From Alphaproteobacteria bacterium (GTDB taxonomy: Bacteria > Pseudomonadota > Alphaproteobacteria > RF32 > CAG-239): a DNA stretch of 34,595 nucleotides. Within the stretch, counting starts at the first letter, position 1. Each line of letters begins with the position of its first letter. Positions 13,533 through 34,424 of this stretch are shown one piece after another. A program made the translations under genes and the position numbers. Location of the stretch: the NCBI GenBank assembly GCA_017484225.1, contig JAFUTN010000036.1, forward strand, positions 1 through 34,595, given 5' to 3'. The notes under the pieces are model-generated. The model did no database searches and was not told the DNA's origin. It saw nothing but the letters and a program-made list of their open reading frames with translations.

Positions 13533-13734
13533 CAGAGTGTGAAAAGACACACTTCAGGGCGTGAGAACCCTTTCAGTTAATAAGCAGTCGTCAACAAACA
13601 ACGACTTTGAGCCGATACGTTCATCACGGACGGATGTCGGCGAATAAGGTTATCAGCTAAATAAGCCGAGCCGGTTTTTGCTTATTGACTAACGGTTTCT
13701 CAACATCCGCCCACCGATTCAGGTGGCTTTTTTA
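13533..13734 (+). ncRNA. Structured leader RNA, module 1 (HEARO/omega-RNA-like, possible attenuator)
   Basis: About 200 nt between a promoter and a BspA-like gene. Hairpin AGTGTG/CACACT (13536-13553). Closing helix GGGCG (13557-13561) with CGCCC (13708-13712), extended by TGAGAACC with GGTTTCTCA (13694-13702), leaving ACATC bulged. An 11-bp helix AGTTAATAAGC (13575-13585)/GCTTATTGACT (13680-13690). Hairpin AGTCGT/ACGACT (13586-13606). Hairpin GCCGA/TCGGC (13611-13641) whose loop holds GGATGT, complementary to the bulged ACATCC. The copy at 33300 keeps every pairing with different bases. The order of elements and the motifs CGGATG and ATAAGCC recall the IscB/HEARO scaffold. That resemblance is from memory and not tested. 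The ORFs on this stretch are not coding. Confidence 0.75.
13711..13733 (+). terminator. Terminator hairpin inside the leader of module 1
   Basis: CCACC (13711-13715) pairs with GGTGG (13722-13726), followed by CTTTTTT. The first two C residues are also needed by the closing helix of the leader RNA, so terminator and closed RNA fold compete. It lies 36 bases before the LRR protein start. Confidence 0.65.
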
Positions 13735-13768: not shown

Positions 13769-14605
13769 ATGAAACATTTACCACTCCTGCTAATACTTAC
13801 ATTATTTTTTGAAATAAGCGAATCACCGGCGCAAGATGAAATAAATTGTAACGCAAATCAGCAATCATGCGGACAAAGTTGTTGTTGGTCTGTAGAAAAT
13901 ACCAAATTAGTCATAACCGGCGGAAAAGACGGAACCATTGGAACAATGGATGATTACGCTTGGGGAGGAACAGGACAAAATACACAATGGCCGGCAAACA
14001 TCACATCAATTTATGTATCCGGCGTGAACAATATCGGCAGCGAAGCTTTCAGAAATATGCGCAAAGTCAGAGACATAACCATCGGCGATTCGGTTAAGAC
14101 TGTAGGTATTGCTGCGTTTGATAATGACAACAGTCTGAGATATGTTGATTTTGGTGATGCCGTAACAAGTATCGGAGGTTCTGCTTTTGAAGATGCCCCC
14201 AGTCTCATACAGATAATAGTTCCGGACACATTGAAAAATATAAACTATCAATCTCTCGGTAGTGGAAATATTGTTTCAAGAAATATTCAAATCATTTGCC
14301 GTGGTGATAAAGCATCTTGCTCCGGAGTTTATGAAAAACTGTCAAAATACTCATCATCATATGGAGAAGGGCCTTATGATGCCTCAAGTGTATTATCTTA
14401 TGCAAATTACGAGCAATGTATCTCCGGCAATTATTATTGGGATGGAACAAAATGCGTTAGAGAACCGGATGTATCAAAGCGCGCCTGCTGTCCGGTGTGT
14501 GCCGATTTGGACGGATATTGCAGCCGTATTCGTTACACCATACCGGAAGCAGATGAACTAACCTCAAACGACAATGAAAATATGATTGAATGGATTTTTG
14601 AGTAA
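13769..14605 (+). CDS. Secreted BspA-like leucine-rich repeat protein, module 1
   Basis: 278 residues: signal peptide (MKHLPLLLILTLFFEISESP), a Cys-containing N-terminal part, the usual BspA lead-in (WSVENTKLVITGG), then about four LRR_5 repeats (such as NIGSEAFRNM, TVGIAAFDNDNSL, SIGGSAFEDAPSL). A Cys-rich module (CCPVCADLDGYCSRIRY) and the tail SNDNENMIEWIFE close it. I chose the second ATG (13769) because AAAGGA lies 8 bases upstream. An ATG three codons earlier overlaps that site. The function is unknown. BspA-type LRRs of other bacteria bind host or bacterial surfaces. It has two paralogues in this window (27358, 33528). Confidence 0.8.
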   Translation: MKHLPLLLILTLFFEISESPAQDEINCNANQQSCGQSCCWSVENTKLVITGGKDGTIGTMDDYAWGGTGQNTQWPANITSIYVSGVNNIGSEAFRNMRKVRDITIGDSVKTVGIAAFDNDNSLRYVDFGDAVTSIGGSAFEDAPSLIQIIVPDTLKNINYQSLGSGNIVSRNIQIICRGDKASCSGVYEKLSKYSSSYGEGPYDASSVLSYANYEQCISGNYYWDGTKCVREPDVSKRACCPVCADLDGYCSRIRYTIPEADELTSNDNENMIEWIFE

Positions 14606-19790: not shown

Positions 19791-19992
19791 AAGATGACAA
19801 TGGAGTGTTCTTCCGTTCGGGATTCAAGATGACGATAAGGAAAGAATCAGCCGAGATAGGTCGGGAATGACTGTAAATAAAAGTCGGGAATGACAATAAT
19901 AAAACTCATCCTTTTAAAAGGGGAAATCCCGCCTTGCATGGTGCAAAGGCGGGATTTCTATATATTGAATGCGTGGGGTTTTCCGCATGAAG

Positions 19993-20865
19993 TTATTTCC
20001 CCGATGCGCGCATCTGGTTGATGCGTGCATTTGCAGCTTTGAACTGCTCGTAGGCATCGTGAGAGCCGAATACCACATTCTGCGTCTTGGTCTTCTGCTT
20101 CCAAGACGAGAAGTTGTAGGTTACACCAATCATCAGATTGGCGATTGCTCTCTCTTCCGAGCCGGACTCATAATACTGAAGTCCGACACCGGCCTTAGCC
20201 TCGGCAAAGGCTGCAAATCCGGTTCCCCAGAAATGACGCGTATAGCGTAATCCGAGGCCACCCATGGCAGTGCTGCCCTTCACGTGGAAGCGGTTGTTAT
20301 TCACCGCTTCAGGAGTTTCAAACTCAACCTTGTTAGAGTTGCGGTTCAGCTTGTAACCGCCCCAAATGAAGGCGGTCCATACCTGCTGGTTTCGCTTGCC
20401 CCCAGCCGAAGCGTGGGCAAAATTTACACCAGCAGTAGCCTCAAACTGGACTGAAAAATATTTTTGTCCGGCCTGGTCGCTCTCGTCAACAAAGGTATCG
20501 TACGTGCCAAGCACGTTAAGAGAAAGATCAAACAGTTTTCCCTCAAACCGGCCAGTAAAACCGCCAAGAGGGGCCGCGTTGCCACGCCAGAGCTGACCAC
20601 CGGCAATGATACCGGCGGAGAAGCCGTTAATTCGGCGTGTCTCCGTGAGGACATCAATGGACTGAACCACTGAGTCCCCCTGCATCAGGTCAACACTTGC
20701 CAGATACTCGTCCTCGTAGTAACGAGACGAGTTCATGGCATCGTCTGACTCAGCAGCCTTGATGGCTGTGAGGATGTCGGTTGACTTGCTCTGGGCGTTC
20801 ATGTTCACGGGTGCTGCAGCGAATGCTGCGACTGCCATAATGGCAGCAAAGAAAAACTTCTTCAT
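19993..20865 (-). CDS. Bacteroidota-like outer-membrane beta-barrel protein
   Basis: There are 290 residues from the ATG at 20865, opening with a Bacteroidota-style signal peptide (MKKFFFAAIMAVAAFAAAPV, then NMNAQS). The rest alternates Gly and aromatic residues typical of barrel strands (GFSAGIIAGGQLW, TAFIWGGYKLNR, NLMIGVTYNF). Codons are GC-rich at the third position and the start is preceded by AT-rich sequence without a Shine-Dalgarno site, as in Bacteroidota and unlike the host genes around it. It lies 110 bases downstream of the lipoprotein gene and probably shares its transcript. The specific function is unknown. Confidence 0.75.
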   Translation of the reverse strand: MKKFFFAAIMAVAAFAAAPVNMNAQSKSTDILTAIKAAESDDAMNSSRYYEDEYLASVDLMQGDSVVQSIDVLTETRRINGFSAGIIAGGQLWRGNAAPLGGFTGRFEGKLFDLSLNVLGTYDTFVDESDQAGQKYFSVQFEATAGVNFAHASAGGKRNQQVWTAFIWGGYKLNRNSNKVEFETPEAVNNNRFHVKGSTAMGGLGLRYTRHFWGTGFAAFAEAKAGVGLQYYESGSEERAIANLMIGVTYNFSSWKQKTKTQNVVFGSHDAYEQFKAANARINQMRASGK

Positions 20866-20975
20866 ATCTGTAAATTTTAAATTCAAAAAAAATAATTAAC
20901 TAACTCAAATTTTAAGACGTCTGTCTGAGGGTGATGCCGGAATTGGCACCACCTCAGGCAAATATCTTGGCAAAA

Positions 20976-23246
20976 CTACTTAGCGGTCTTGTAGGAACCA
21001 ATAACGGTGTTGCCCTTCTTAATGGTCAGCACGTTGTTCTCAAAGGTATAAGAATAATCGTGATTGTGCACGGTAATCTTACCACCATAAGTGTACCAAT
21101 TCATTGCGGTTGCACTTATGTAGTTTAGAGAACGAACGGATGATCCATTGGAAGCTTTCCAGAGCATGTAATCGCCCTCATCGGAGGCGATCGTGTGCAT
21201 CCAAGCTCCCTTCTTATAGGCTCCGCCGTTCAGAGCAGCGTTTGTATCTGAGGTGAATACCTTGCGGGCACCCTCCTCAAACTTACCGATACTACTAGCA
21301 TTCTTGTCCAGCACAATGAGCCATGTTCCTTCCTCAAAGTGAACGCTCAGCGTCACATTGTAAGAAGCATTGTTCTCATCGGGAGCGTTGGTAACGCTCA
21401 TTGACTTGAAGTGCATATTTATATCTGGCACCCAAGGCTGCTCCTTGGTAACATAGATAGTGCCATAAGCCGTTGCCGACTTATTGTCACCGCCAAAATT
21501 AACACGAATATTGTCTGAATACTGATAGGTATCCAGAGTCTCCGTGCTATTGGTCTTTGTGACATTGGCACCACCGGCAGCTACGCTAACCTCTGCATCT
21601 GTAAGGGCGTGCTCTTTGCCTTCGTCGTCAACGAAAACGACACCCTGAATAACGTTGATGTTGAATACGTTATTCTTGGTATTGGCATTGAGCTTGGCGT
21701 TATCGCTTGCGCGATACACTACATTGTAGTAGCGCCAGTTACCCTCGCTCTTCTTCTCGCTTGAAGAAGACTTTGCACTAGACAACCCGCTGGTTGTCTG
21801 GTTGGCGTTGGCCTCATGGCTCTCCCATCCTGGCTGAGCGGTTACAGACCAAGGCTTAACAAGGTCTTCAAGCGGTGTATTCACAACATTACCATCTGTG
21901 TAAGTGGTTGTTTTCACAGCATGAGCTGTGTAGTAACCATTCTTAACCTCCCAAGTAATATTGTAGCTCACGCTCTTAACCTTCACTTCGGCCTGATAGA
22001 GACCAAGAGTCTCGCTCAGGGGCTGACTGAAACCTAAGTACAATGTTTTAATCTTGTTAGTAACGGTGGCACGCTTGTAGTTGCCATCGCTCGTAACGTT
22101 AGAAACATTCGTACCGGCCTCAGATACCTCGGGACGCACGTAGTCAAACTCCACCTTGCCATACTCATCCTCAAATGTTGCACGAGGAATCATATAGGTG
22201 TAAGCAGTTGTCCATGTGTCGACTGAGTTTCCAACGTTTGCGCCGGAAGCATCAGTAGTTACCCAACACTTCCAGTTCTTATCGCTGGTCTCAATCTGAG
22301 TCTCAGAGGAGCCTTTGACATAACCATTGTCTTTCTTCCATTTCCAAGCAAAATCAGTGGTCTCACGATCACTGAAAGTCTTGCCCTTAAATTCGCGCGG
22401 TCCTACGAAAGAATAGTCAACCACAACGGTCTGACCACCCTTATACTCAAAGGTGCGCTTGAAAGAGAACCGATCCTGAGTCTCTGAAATAGCTTCGTGC
22501 TTCTTGTCGCTATCAGTTACACTCTTAATATCGTTCTTAGACAACAGCTTACGAACTGCTGAAATGGCCATACGCTTCACGAAATTACGGGGGTTAGAGA
22601 TGTTTCTAACCTCGTGAGTGTAAACATCCACGTAGAACGTGGTGTTCATTACCTCACTAACGTAATATTCCGGAACGGAAGCGGCGCGAGTTGTTGCAGG
22701 GGCATTGTTGACAGCCTTGACGAACTTGATGCTGTCACATGTAAGTGTCGGCAGGTCATACGTATTATTAAAAATGCTATAATCCTTTGACCAGATGTCT
22801 ACATCTACATGCAACACATTGCCGTCATTAAGGACGATGTCACAATGCTTCTGCTCCCACTGCTTATATTGGGAGCGGTCGGTCATAACGTGGCTCAGAG
22901 CCACAACCTCACGCTGGCTTTCAACGATAAAGTAATTCGTTGAATCCTCAGAGAGGACAGCCTTCAAAACCTCTGTCTCAGAGGCACTTTCCTGCTTGCT
23001 ACCCATGGTAGCAGTAGCAGTAATAGATATAGTGTCCGTGAGGACACTGAGATTCTCCGGACTCCAATTGTGCTTGAGTCCGAAATCAACAGAAATTGAA
23101 TCACCACTGGGAGTGGGATATTTCTGAGTAGTGTTCCAGTCGATGCCCAACCCCTCGTCGGAGGAATTGCAAGACGTAAATACACAAACAATTACTGCGA
23201 GTGCCATCATGATGGTCAGCACGCTGTTCATAGCCTTCTTTGCCAT
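20976..23246 (-). CDS. Bacteroidota-like surface lipoprotein
   Basis: 756 residues with a lipoprotein signal (MAKKAMNSVLTIMMALAVIV, lipobox FTSC, lipidated Cys26), then SNSSDEG-like polar residues. Acidic residues after the Cys favour surface export in Bacteroidota. The body is rich in Thr, Ser, Asn and beta-strand pattern, suggesting stacked immunoglobulin-like domains. No catalytic motif is recognised. No Shine-Dalgarno site precedes the ATG and codon use differs from the host. It is probably co-transferred with the outer-membrane gene that follows. In the 23247-23637 gap I see only AT-rich sequence. Confidence 0.7.
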   Translation of the reverse strand: MAKKAMNSVLTIMMALAVIVCVFTSCNSSDEGLGIDWNTTQKYPTPSGDSISVDFGLKHNWSPENLSVLTDTISITATATMGSKQESASETEVLKAVLSEDSTNYFIVESQREVVALSHVMTDRSQYKQWEQKHCDIVLNDGNVLHVDVDIWSKDYSIFNNTYDLPTLTCDSIKFVKAVNNAPATTRAASVPEYYVSEVMNTTFYVDVYTHEVRNISNPRNFVKRMAISAVRKLLSKNDIKSVTDSDKKHEAISETQDRFSFKRTFEYKGGQTVVVDYSFVGPREFKGKTFSDRETTDFAWKWKKDNGYVKGSSETQIETSDKNWKCWVTTDASGANVGNSVDTWTTAYTYMIPRATFEDEYGKVEFDYVRPEVSEAGTNVSNVTSDGNYKRATVTNKIKTLYLGFSQPLSETLGLYQAEVKVKSVSYNITWEVKNGYYTAHAVKTTTYTDGNVVNTPLEDLVKPWSVTAQPGWESHEANANQTTSGLSSAKSSSSEKKSEGNWRYYNVVYRASDNAKLNANTKNNVFNINVIQGVVFVDDEGKEHALTDAEVSVAAGGANVTKTNSTETLDTYQYSDNIRVNFGGDNKSATAYGTIYVTKEQPWVPDINMHFKSMSVTNAPDENNASYNVTLSVHFEEGTWLIVLDKNASSIGKFEEGARKVFTSDTNAALNGGAYKKGAWMHTIASDEGDYMLWKASNGSSVRSLNYISATAMNWYTYGGKITVHNHDYSYTFENNVLTIKKGNTVIGSYKTAK

Positions 23247-27055: not shown

Positions 27056-27083
27056 TTGCAAAAACAAATTTATATGGTATGCT
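27056..27083 (+). promoter_or_regulatory. Promoter of RNA-LRR module 2
   Basis: TTGCAA (27056-27061), 16 bases, TATGCT (27078-27083). The predicted start near 27090 again coincides with the first hairpin of the leader RNA. Confidence 0.5.
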
Positions 27084-27089
27084 TGTTTC

Positions 27090-27328
27090 ATGACGATATG
27101 AGTTCGTCAAGAACCCGAAAAAGGGGTTCGGAGCTGTCAGAGGCTTTAATCGCAAGATACCTGAAGAGGTATCCTATTACGGATGCTTTTTTGGTATTTA
27201 AATATCCCCGCTTTGGTTGGGGAGATTGTGGTGTATGTTCAGGCATTTATGCTAAAGGCCACAATAGTCATTACTTGCGATATGATTTCTGAACTCTCCG
27301 ACCGTCCTTTTGAGGCGGATTTTTTTAT
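27090..27328 (+). ncRNA. Structured leader RNA, module 2 (different sequence, similar plan)
   Basis: Hairpins TGACGA/TCGTCA (27091-27109) and GAACCC/GGGTTC (27111-27129). Closing helix GGAG (27130-27133) with CTCC (27296-27299), and TCAGA (27137-27141) with TCTGA (27288-27292). Next is an 8-bp helix ATCGCAAG (27149-27156)/CTTGCGAT (27274-27281). Internal hairpins ATACCT/AGGTAT (27157-27172), TCCCC/GGGGA (27205-27223) and TTGTGG/CCACAA (27226-27264). A terminator hairpin (27302-27318) with seven T ends it. So many nested complementary segments are unlikely by chance. An open frame of 78 codons crosses it, but I consider it accidental. Whether it is a distant relative of the module 1 and 3 RNAs is unclear. 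Confidence 0.65.
27302..27326 (+). terminator. Terminator hairpin inside the leader of module 2
   Basis: CCG and CC (27302-27307, T bulge) pair with GG and CGG (27314-27318), followed by A and seven T residues, 29 bases before the LRR protein start. Confidence 0.55.
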
Positions 27329-27357
27329 TTTAAATTTTGCTTAAATGGAGAAAAATG

Positions 27358-28065
27358 ATGAAAAAAATTGTGTTAATGTTGGGGATTGTGATATGCTTTG
27401 CGAATAGAACTTATGCCGAAACATGGAACTGCGGACCGGCAACAGGAGGAGTATACAGTGACAGTGTGAAATGCACTTATGATGAAGCAAGTAAAACTCT
27501 TACTATTTCAGGCGAAGGCGAAATGGGGAATTATGCCCAAACAAGTGGTGACGGCTCATCTGCTCCATGGTATGGTAAAGACATTGTTCACGCAGTTATA
27601 GAAGGAAACGTAATCAGTATCGGAGACAGGGTATTTAAGAAGACGGCACTTGAAGATATAACCGGAACCGAAAATATAACCCGTGTCGGAGTTGGTGCCT
27701 TTGCCTATTCCTCACTAAAAAGTATAGATTTACCTAATGTTCAGGAAATAAGCGGTAGGGCATTTGGTTGGACATCATCTTTAGAGTATGTAGGTATTCC
27801 CGATAACATAAATTATACTACGGATGAAGATGGAACCCCGGGTGATACCTTTCAGGCATCTGCCCTTCCGAATTGTGAAAAAAGAAGTGACTGCGGAAAT
27901 TGCGGAGAAAAATTTGTGCAAGCTGGAGTTGGGTGTGTAAGTAGTTGTTATACAGGATATACTTCATATTACGGGTTTTGCACGCGCACTCGTTATACCA
28001 TACCGGAAGCAGATGAGGCAACATCAAATGATAACGAAAATATGATTGAGTGGATTTTTGAGTGA
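27358..28065 (+). CDS. Secreted BspA-like leucine-rich repeat protein, module 2
   Basis: 235 residues: signal peptide (MKKIVLMLGIVICFANRTYA), BspA lead-in (TLTISGEGEMGNYA), about three LRR_5 repeats (SIGDRVFKKTAL, RVGVGAFAYSSL, EISGRAFGWTSSL), a Cys-rich segment and the shared tail RYTIPEADEATSNDNENMIEWIFE-like (see the two paralogues). GGAG seven bases upstream favours the ATG at 27358 over the one at 27355. The Cys-rich segment (CEKRSDCGNCGEKF, CVSSCYTGYTSYYGFC) differs from the CCPVC form in modules 1 and 3. The role is unknown, presumably surface or extracellular. Confidence 0.8.
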   Translation: MKKIVLMLGIVICFANRTYAETWNCGPATGGVYSDSVKCTYDEASKTLTISGEGEMGNYAQTSGDGSSAPWYGKDIVHAVIEGNVISIGDRVFKKTALEDITGTENITRVGVGAFAYSSLKSIDLPNVQEISGRAFGWTSSLEYVGIPDNINYTTDEDGTPGDTFQASALPNCEKRSDCGNCGEKFVQAGVGCVSSCYTGYTSYYGFCTRTRYTIPEADEATSNDNENMIEWIFE

Positions 28066-33299: not shown

Positions 33300-33491
33300 G
33301 TAGAGTGACACAAACACTCTATAGGGCGTGAGAACCCTTAACACAATTAGTCATTATTCTGATAATGACTTGAAATTTGCTGGTATTCGTATCTGTGCGG
33401 ATGTCAGCTGAATAAGGCAATGCCCAATAGGCTGAGCCATCTGATTGTGTATGGTTTCTCAACATCCGCCCGTCTTTTGAACGGGTTTTTT
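33300..33491 (+). ncRNA. Structured leader RNA, module 3 (HEARO/omega-RNA-like, possible attenuator)
   Basis: Same architecture as 13533-13734. Hairpin TAGAGTG/CACTCTA (33301-33321). Closing helix GGGCG (33324-33328)/CGCCC (33467-33471) and TGAGAACC/GGTTTCTCA (33453-33461), with ACATC bulged. Helix ACACAATTAG (33341-33350)/CTGATTGTGT (33441-33450). Hairpin TCATTAT/ATAATGA (33351-33368). Hairpin GCTGG/TCAGC (33379-33408) with GGATGT (33399-33404) at its 3' side, able to pair with ACATCC (33462-33467). Three of these helices differ in sequence from module 1 but remain paired, which is direct support for an RNA structure. Confidence 0.75.
33469..33491 (+). terminator. Terminator hairpin inside the leader of module 3
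   Basis: CCCGT (33469-33473) pairs with ACGGG (33481-33485), followed by six T residues. Its first three bases are the last three of the closing helix CGCCC, so both structures cannot be complete at once. Confidence 0.65.
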
Positions 33492-33527: not shown

Positions 33528-34424
33528 ATGAAACATTTAAGATTTATCGGCTTTTTTACCTTAATGTTTGTAAATCCGGTGTTGGCGGAAACGGTAAGCT
33601 GCACAAACGGAGTGAGAGAAGACGGAATCACGGCTTGTGATAAATGCGGGGATAATTGCGATTGGAGTTTTGATACGGTAAGCGGTGCGTTAACCGTTTC
33701 CGGTAGCGGCAATATGAACGATTACGCACATTACGAAGAAGAAAAAACATATTATACCACTGCTCCTTGGGGAAAGTATCAAGGGCAAATAAAATCCATA
33801 GATGTTTCCGGATTATCAAACATAGGAGTACACGCATTTTCTGACTTAGGCTCACAACTGAACAATGTAAACATAAGTGATTCTGTAACTTATATCAAAA
33901 AATTTGCTTTTTGGGCTGATAATTCTTTATCAAGTATTGATTTACCGGATTCGCTTGTTTCTATAGGAGATGGTGCTTTCGCTTGGGATAGACTTACCAA
34001 GATAATCATTCCGGACACATTACAAACTTTTGGGAGTAGAAATTTAGGTTATTACGCTGAGGCTAATCGTGATGCCGTAGAAATAATATGCCGCGGTAAC
34101 AACGAAAGTTGCAAAAAACTAAATTCTTTGTTGGAACAATACGTATATTTTACGGAAAGGTATGATGCCAACGGTAAGGCTATATATTCAAAAAAAGATA
34201 TCAGCAACAGAATGACTTTAGCACAGGCTGAAGACTGCAGCAGTTTAAATTATTTTTGGAACGGTGTAGAATGTGTGCGTGAACCGGATGTATCCAAACG
34301 TGCCTGCTGTCCGGTGTGTGCTGATTTGGACGGCTTTTGCAGCCGTATTCGTTATACTCTGCCGGAAGCTGATGCGGCGACAAGTGATGATAATGAAAAT
34401 ATGATTGAATGGATTTTTGAGTAA
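33528..34424 (+). CDS. Secreted BspA-like leucine-rich repeat protein, module 3
   Basis: 298 residues: signal peptide (MKHLRFIGFFTLMFVNPVLA), a Cys-rich start (CTNGVREDGITACDKCGDNC), BspA lead-in (GALTVSGSGNMNDYA), about four LRR_5 repeats (NIGVHAFSDLGSQL, YIKKFAFWADNSL, SIGDGAFAWDRL), IICRGNNESCKKL as in module 1, then CCPVCADLDGFCSRIRY and the tail SDDNENMIEWIFE. AAAGGA eight bases before the ATG at 33528 sets the start. The 25 or so bases around the ribosome site and the last ~145 bases are almost the same as in module 1, while the repeats between differ. Confidence 0.8.
   Translation: MKHLRFIGFFTLMFVNPVLAETVSCTNGVREDGITACDKCGDNCDWSFDTVSGALTVSGSGNMNDYAHYEEEKTYYTTAPWGKYQGQIKSIDVSGLSNIGVHAFSDLGSQLNNVNISDSVTYIKKFAFWADNSLSSIDLPDSLVSIGDGAFAWDRLTKIIIPDTLQTFGSRNLGYYAEANRDAVEIICRGNNESCKKLNSLLEQYVYFTERYDANGKAIYSKKDISNRMTLAQAEDCSSLNYFWNGVECVREPDVSKRACCPVCADLDGFCSRIRYTLPEADAATSDDNENMIEWIFE

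Follow-up and report, generated by a model that had tools for sequence, protein, structure and literature searches.

A highly repeated, elaborately folded leader RNA before surface-protein genes of an alphaproteobacterium, resembling in part the C4 RNA of phage P1

The window analyzed here, a 34,595-nt stretch of contig JAFUTN010000036.1, comes from an alphaproteobacterial MAG of 1.48 Mb in 57 contigs, which often end in leader repeats. It contains three modules with leader regions on the forward strand, at 13556-13711 (module 1), 27090-27328 (module 2) and 33323-33470 (module 3). The module 2 leader, the subject of this work, comes after the terminator that follows an L17-like gene and precedes an LRR_5 (BspA-type) gene (27355-28065, plus strand; Pfam PF13306, E = 9e-12) that has a signal-peptide-like start and, as originally predicted for the gene behind this leader, the MIEWIFE tail. 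The RNA probably starts near position 27090, from a probable promoter at 27056-27083 (TTGCAA, 16 nt, TATGCT); similar hexamers are found at the same place in the aligned copies, and the promoter is called on this basis because a strict consensus scan gave none. An open reading frame of 78 amino acids (27056-27292) spans the leader. The terminator expected before the ribosome site is present (27302-27326, with the stem at 27302-27318 and then a T-run), and a T-run is located 3' of the RNA in nearly all other copies. The ribosome site, GGAGA (27347-27351), is complementary to the TCTCC of the 3' strand of the long-range helix P0 described below. Elsewhere in the window (19969-23246), two minus-strand genes, 19993-20886 and 20976-23246, look like Bacteroidales proteins in an alphaproteobacterial contig, which has the look of either horizontal transfer or a chimeric contig.

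The module 2 stretch encodes a real, elaborately folded RNA before a surface-protein gene. The minimum free energy of 27090-27330 is -85.9 kcal/mol, with z = -5.3 against dinucleotide shuffles, none of which (0 of 200) was as low, and the fold is proved by compensatory changes. Among 25 full copies of the same type (type B, defined below) aligned from the same genome, double changes occur in 25 of the 45 pairs, with 173 double-change cells compared with 54 in shuffles, and 95.9% of the cells are paired, a share that does not exceed 48% with slid partners. For 86 type B sequences from other genomes, the respective values are 34 of 45 pairs, 959 cells compared with 250, and 97.6% compared with at most 49%. 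It is hardly credible, then, that the stretch is merely untranslated or is a small coding frame with no RNA function: the 78-amino-acid frame does cover the leader, but the compensatory change is massive and the 25 copies disagree in their longest frame across the core, which falls, depending on the copy, in each of the three frames, has 19 to 299 amino acids and ends at differing stops, so that the conservation as a protein named in the original prediction as counter-evidence is not observed.

The 5' half opens, as anticipated, with a hairpin, hp1 (TGACGA/TCGTCA, 27091-27109), which is seen in the fold and has a variable hairpin at the same place in other copies. It is followed by hp2 (GAACC/GGTTC, 27111-27129; 97% of the cells paired and double changes in 5 of 5 pairs in the 86 sequences) and S1 (27131-27146; GAGC 27131-27134 with GCTT 27143-27146), which is 97% paired, with double changes in 3 of 4 pairs in the same sequences, and occupies the position of a1 in the phage P1 C4 RNA. 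Within the 8-nt loop of S1 (27135-27142), TCAGA (27137-27141) pairs with TCTGA (27288-27292) to form the pseudoknot PK1 (27137-27292), which is 100% paired in the 25 paralogues, with many kinds of compensatory change, and 99.8% paired in the 86 sequences, and is one of the best supported helices. The next helix, P2 (27149-27281), joins the b1-like ATCGCAAG (27149-27156) with the b'-like CTTGCGAT (27274-27281); about 90% of its cells are paired over the 25 paralogues, again with many kinds of compensatory change, and 98.5% over the 86 sequences, with double changes in 8 of 8 pairs. The proposed 8-bp second helix is therefore real and among the best supported, but it is a pseudoknot that crosses S5 and P0, with its 3' strand within the S5 hairpin loop. 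Two further hairpins are P3 (ATACC/GGTAT, 27157-27172), a variable one drawn from the sequence and the alignment, part of which is paired differently in the single-sequence fold, and P4 (TCCCCG/TTGGGGA, 27205-27223), an alternative to P0 that is 97.5% paired with little double change in the 86 sequences.

The 3' half is a three-way junction closed by P0 and containing P5 and S5. P0 (27215-27303) pairs GGTTGGGGAG (27215-27224) with CTCTCCGACC (27294-27303) and is 99.6% paired; its outer extension covaries both in the same genus and in other genera (p < 0.0002), and the helix is strongly covarying in the class-level alignment. P5 (27225-27232/27258-27265), which with the tip helix P6 spans 27225-27265, shows double changes in 8 of 8 pairs in the 86 sequences, and its internal loop, GTATGTTCA (27233-27241) opposite AAAG (27254-27257), is strongly conserved. 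S5 (27266-27287; AGTCAT 27266-27271 with ATGATT 27282-27287) is 97.5% paired in the 86 type B sequences, where the pairs themselves hardly vary; in type A, it is represented by the covarying GCCGT/ACGGT and GCCAT/ATGGT. Covariation shows that the 5' half, namely the S1 loop and the 5' strand of P2, pairs with the 3' half. The split closing helix that had been proposed is accordingly only partly retained, with TCAGA/TCTGA real, as PK1, and GGAG/CTCC unsupported. The latter can be drawn but shows few double changes and was rejected because S1, the covarying 4-bp hairpin of the same GAGC with GCTT, excludes it; the CTCTCCGACC strand is paired with GGTTGGGGAG in P0 instead.

The structured RNA claimed in the original prediction is confirmed as a whole, and the copies extend far beyond the three modules of the window, which are only three of about ninety relatives in this genome. 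A DNA search of the genome gave 38 matches for the module 2 leader and 43 for the module 3 leader, and covariance models recovered 34 type B and 60 type A matches, with no overlap; the module 2 leader belongs to type B, and those of modules 1 and 3 to type A. Searching for MIEWIFE-type tails, the check suggested with the original prediction, identified 85 genes, and a leader is found before 82 of these (55 A and 27 B); two of the other three are at contig ends and one has none. Most of the leaders are located 45-65 nt upstream of the start codon. Many G000 contigs (e.g. C16, C5, C31, C51 and C22) break inside leaders, and copy numbers in draft genomes are probably underestimated. The tail itself, RYTLPEADxxTSxDNENMIEWIFE, is nearly constant in the 85 otherwise diverse proteins (14519-14602, 27979-28062 and 34338-34421 in the window), and a related genus has the tail RIYTIEEAN...RLRYK instead; the MIEWIFE tail could be a sorting or anchoring signal. 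A Pfam search with two tail proteins detected LRR_5 only.

The relationship between the two types was assessed with three models: R1 (type B), R2 (type A) and R3, which was built from 23 class-level sequences, only from other alphaproteobacterial families, without any own-genome or type B sequences. The R3 alignment was fitted to R2, and the E-values of these home-made models are rough. The original statement that the module 2 leader shares almost no sequence with the other two holds for nucleotide searches and for the type-specific models, neither of which finds the other type in the window, but not for R3, which links all three leaders (module 1, E = 6e-21; module 3, E = 8e-21; module 2, E = 3.3e-6). 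Double changes occur in 27 of the 33 pairs of the R3 alignment, including those of P0 and S1, even though these two helices are absent from the model used for aligning. S1, PK1, P2, P5, S5 and P0 follow one another in this same order, with compensatory changes. Furthermore, R1 and R2 match the same place at several loci of other families (E = 4e-6 and 9e-8 at L248, 6e-5 and 1e-10 at L253, 7e-4 and 5e-7 at L251, and 9e-4 and 2e-8 at L247, respectively). By these models, A and B are two branches of one RNA superfamily, and given that R3, devoid of B sequences, finds all three leaders, module 2 is a distant member of it. That the types have separate origins and came to stand before the same genes by convergence is very improbable: the A and B models miss each other in the window, and P5 and P4 differ, but R3 finds both, members elsewhere are matched by both models, and the order of the helices is the same.

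Across the bacterial family, R1 detects the RNA in 126 of the 152 genomes and 14 of the 16 genera, each with at least the number of copies counted, the per-genome counts being lower bounds; R2 does so in 133 of the 152 genomes and 15 genera and also matches members in other alphaproteobacterial families. With R3, 51 of the 386 genomes of the class are positive. The named records with the leader are gut and rumen alphaproteobacterial MAGs, such as Azospirillum sp. CAG:239. Complete or nearly complete genomes of 3.7-3.8 Mb from another family (L246, L247 and L295-L297) carry several copies each, most of which precede a paralogous gene of about 100 amino acids with no function assigned.

The leader RNA is not restricted to MIEWIFE genes. 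In other genomes, it precedes genes for LRR proteins with a different tail, type-IV pilin-like and autotransporter-like proteins, lipoproteins, glycosyl- and acyltransferases, nucleases, methylases and regulators. The 146 downstream genes fall into 58 unrelated clusters, six of which have an A leader in one genome and a B leader in another. The presence of A before the same six families as B argues that both types do the same job, and gives no support to one alternative offered in the original prediction, namely that an independent regulator was recruited to the gene family. R3 and the shared R1 and R2 matches support the other alternative, distant membership of the same RNA class, so that the interpretation survives in part, without the GGAG/CTCC closing helix and without the limitation to MIEWIFE genes. 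In the same genome as the window, a pilin-like gene lies behind a type A leader (L098:576-1400), and the RNA there is untied from the LRR genes; in RGIG4773 (G109 loci L116, L120, L129, L131, L145 and L146), the RNA precedes an expanded type-IV pilin-like family rather than LRR genes.

Behind the closing 3' strand come a hairpin, which within the bacterial family is an intrinsic terminator, and then the ribosome site. In a set of 41 loci from alphaproteobacteria outside this family, most of them with unrelated genes, the 3' strand fits its own ribosome site better than those at other loci (12.80, compared with 10.64 in permutations, sd 0.36, p < 0.0005), as it does at 23 non-redundant loci (p < 0.0005) and in the own-genome B copies, where the own locus beats shuffled loci (p = 0.0005); these permutation tests leave some effect of relatedness in place. 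In type A, AACATCC matches an unusual ribosome site, GGATGY, which is found in 37 of 51 own copies and 11 of 18 other copies, compared with 0 of 25 and 1 of 105, respectively, in type B, where the match is weak evidence because it involves no more than an ordinary Shine-Dalgarno sequence. The leader is a conserved structured one with competing expression-platform helices, and P0 overlaps the terminator stem, in the window by 2 nt only.

Among known systems, the closest in layout is the C4 antisense RNA of phages P1 and P7 (RF01695), in which a1 and b1 lead into a three-way-junction RNA, with the controlled gene's ribosome site coming next; the order in the P1 record is a1, b1, C4, a2, b2. The likeness extends to the position of b' in a hairpin loop, of a' between that hairpin and the closing stem, and to the combination of two upstream decoys with complementarity to the ribosome site; in the module 2 leader, upstream sequences complementary to a' and b' are provided by the covarying PK1 and P2. 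At the gathering cut-off, RF01695 matches neither the window nor 79 loci, with no match to module 2 up to E = 10; R3 against P1 C4 gives a non-significant E of 0.4, and nucleotide similarity is absent at E = 0.01. Copies of a2 and b2 at the ribosome site are absent in the bacterial family of the window (A, p = 0.23; B, p = 0.93), and with them targeting of the C4 kind, for which reason we do not class the module 2 leader among the C4 RNAs. Over 22 sRNA-Xcc1-type loci of other classes, the ribosome site does repeat the S1 loop and the 5' strand of P2 (p < 0.0005), and many loci, e.g. L325, L339, L340 and L320, carry both repeats there. Unlike C4, the leaders described here precede LRR and other host genes, carry an intrinsic terminator and occur in about ninety copies. 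The module 2 leader would work like C4 only in part; it shares the design of C4 and may be homologous to it. C4 is excised by RNase P and blocks the ribosome site, and the reported RNase P site is GGW (PMC5320573); P0 begins with GGT, which fits this site, and RNase P may cut there as it does in C4. A phage origin was sought by exact pattern scans of viral contigs, which gave no hits; one relative has a short match in an Acinetobacter phage. Some genes behind the loci of other classes look, by eye, like phage antirepressors of the Bro-N or KilA-N kind, and the L302 gene is KilA-N by Pfam.

Rfam has no entry that matches type A or B at its cut-offs, and by E-value, modules 2 and 3 give weak matches only, of which that to sRNA-Xcc1 (RF02221), at 24 bits in module 3, turned out to be meaningful. 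RF02221 has no match in module 2 and scores 31-36 bits, below the cut-off of 53, in the own-genome A copies; class-level members pass its gathering cut-off. Conversely, R3 matches most of the RF02221 loci of other classes, usually at full length, with the 5' half located about 75-100 nt upstream of the Rfam match. The Rfam model covers the P0-P5-S5 half; neither the 5' half nor the link with the downstream ribosome site forms part of RF02221 as defined. Unlike the leaders described here, sRNA-Xcc1 has been described as a trans-acting, integron-encoded small RNA. Its position before symE in integron cassettes of Xanthomonas (PMC12444791) is in keeping with a leader role. At one locus (L328:24-1193), an sRNA-Xcc1-type RNA lies a short distance downstream of the end of a CRISPR array.

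On another reading, the terminated leader acts mainly in trans as a small RNA, and the gene behind it is either one of the targets or only incidental. An RNA of 88 nt was mapped for sRNA-Xcc1 (PMC2996969), Acinetobacter baumannii has many C4-like RNAs that are abundant and processed (PMC5320573), and the terminators lie immediately 3' of the leaders. The Group 1 RNAs of A. baumannii, which are processed from longer transcripts (PMC5320573), are similar to those described here in having many paralogues per genome, but they are reported as free small RNAs, whereas here nearly every copy is a gene leader. The position of most leaders 45-65 nt before a start codon, the presence of a leader at 82 of the 85 tail genes and the fit of the 3' strand to the ribosome site of its own locus make a mainly trans-acting role improbable.

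Given that the family is built like the phage P1 C4 antisense RNAs, the leader probably controls both the reading and the translation of the gene behind it. The reading that we prefer, with a probability of roughly 0.6, is that of a cis-regulatory two-state leader, of a widespread superfamily that includes sRNA-Xcc1 and has the C4 layout. With the 3' strand kept within the RNA by P0 and PK1, the terminator stem would be weakened, the ribosome site free and the gene on; upon release of this strand, the terminator would form and the gene would be off, and in the transcripts that read through, the released strand would cover the ribosome site, again with the gene off. This on/off polarity is inferred. 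Possible triggers would be C4-like cleavage by RNase P where P0 begins, an RNA acting in trans, or a ligand. Against such a switch, the predicted stability of P0 (-15.5) far exceeds that of the terminator (-6.9) and of the anti-Shine-Dalgarno duplex (-8.1).

If a ligand were the trigger, the leader would be a riboswitch, with the P5 loop (GTATGTTCA/CTAAAG) and the junctions as the pocket and binding that stabilizes P0 and PK1. Riboswitches that attenuate transcription or mask the ribosome site similarly combine a structured leader, competing helices, a terminator and a maskable ribosome site, and the loop and junction residues here are strongly conserved around variable helices, the terminator and the ribosome site form a platform, the regulon is rich in surface and secreted proteins, and the genome encodes one GGDEF protein. 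However, the P5 loop differs between A and B despite their common gene families, the 58 unrelated gene clusters suggest no common metabolite, the relatives outside the bacterial family resemble antisense systems and, in contrast to riboswitches in general, two of the fold-defining helices look like antisense/decoy pairs. We consider the riboswitch reading rather unlikely. Cyclic di-GMP was set aside as the obvious signal, with only one GGDEF protein in this genome, and a literature search for a riboswitch in these bacteria yielded nothing relevant.

The leader described here joins three separate things: the C4 layout, the Rfam family sRNA-Xcc1, which seems to represent half of a larger leader element, and an unlisted, highly repeated RNA. 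For a regulatory RNA, its number of copies is unusually high given the small size of the genome. As a tentative and somewhat doubtful scenario, a phage-type antisense immunity RNA may have been captured and amplified to about ninety 5' switches of surface genes, with private P2 and PK1 codes that would avoid cross-talk and, perhaps, a sensor gained in the P5 loop. The specific pairs in the leader are open to test by compensatory mutation. For the gut and rumen alphaproteobacteria, which are known mostly from metagenomes, these leaders predict that genes for adhesins, pilins and lipoproteins come under a layer of control by RNA.
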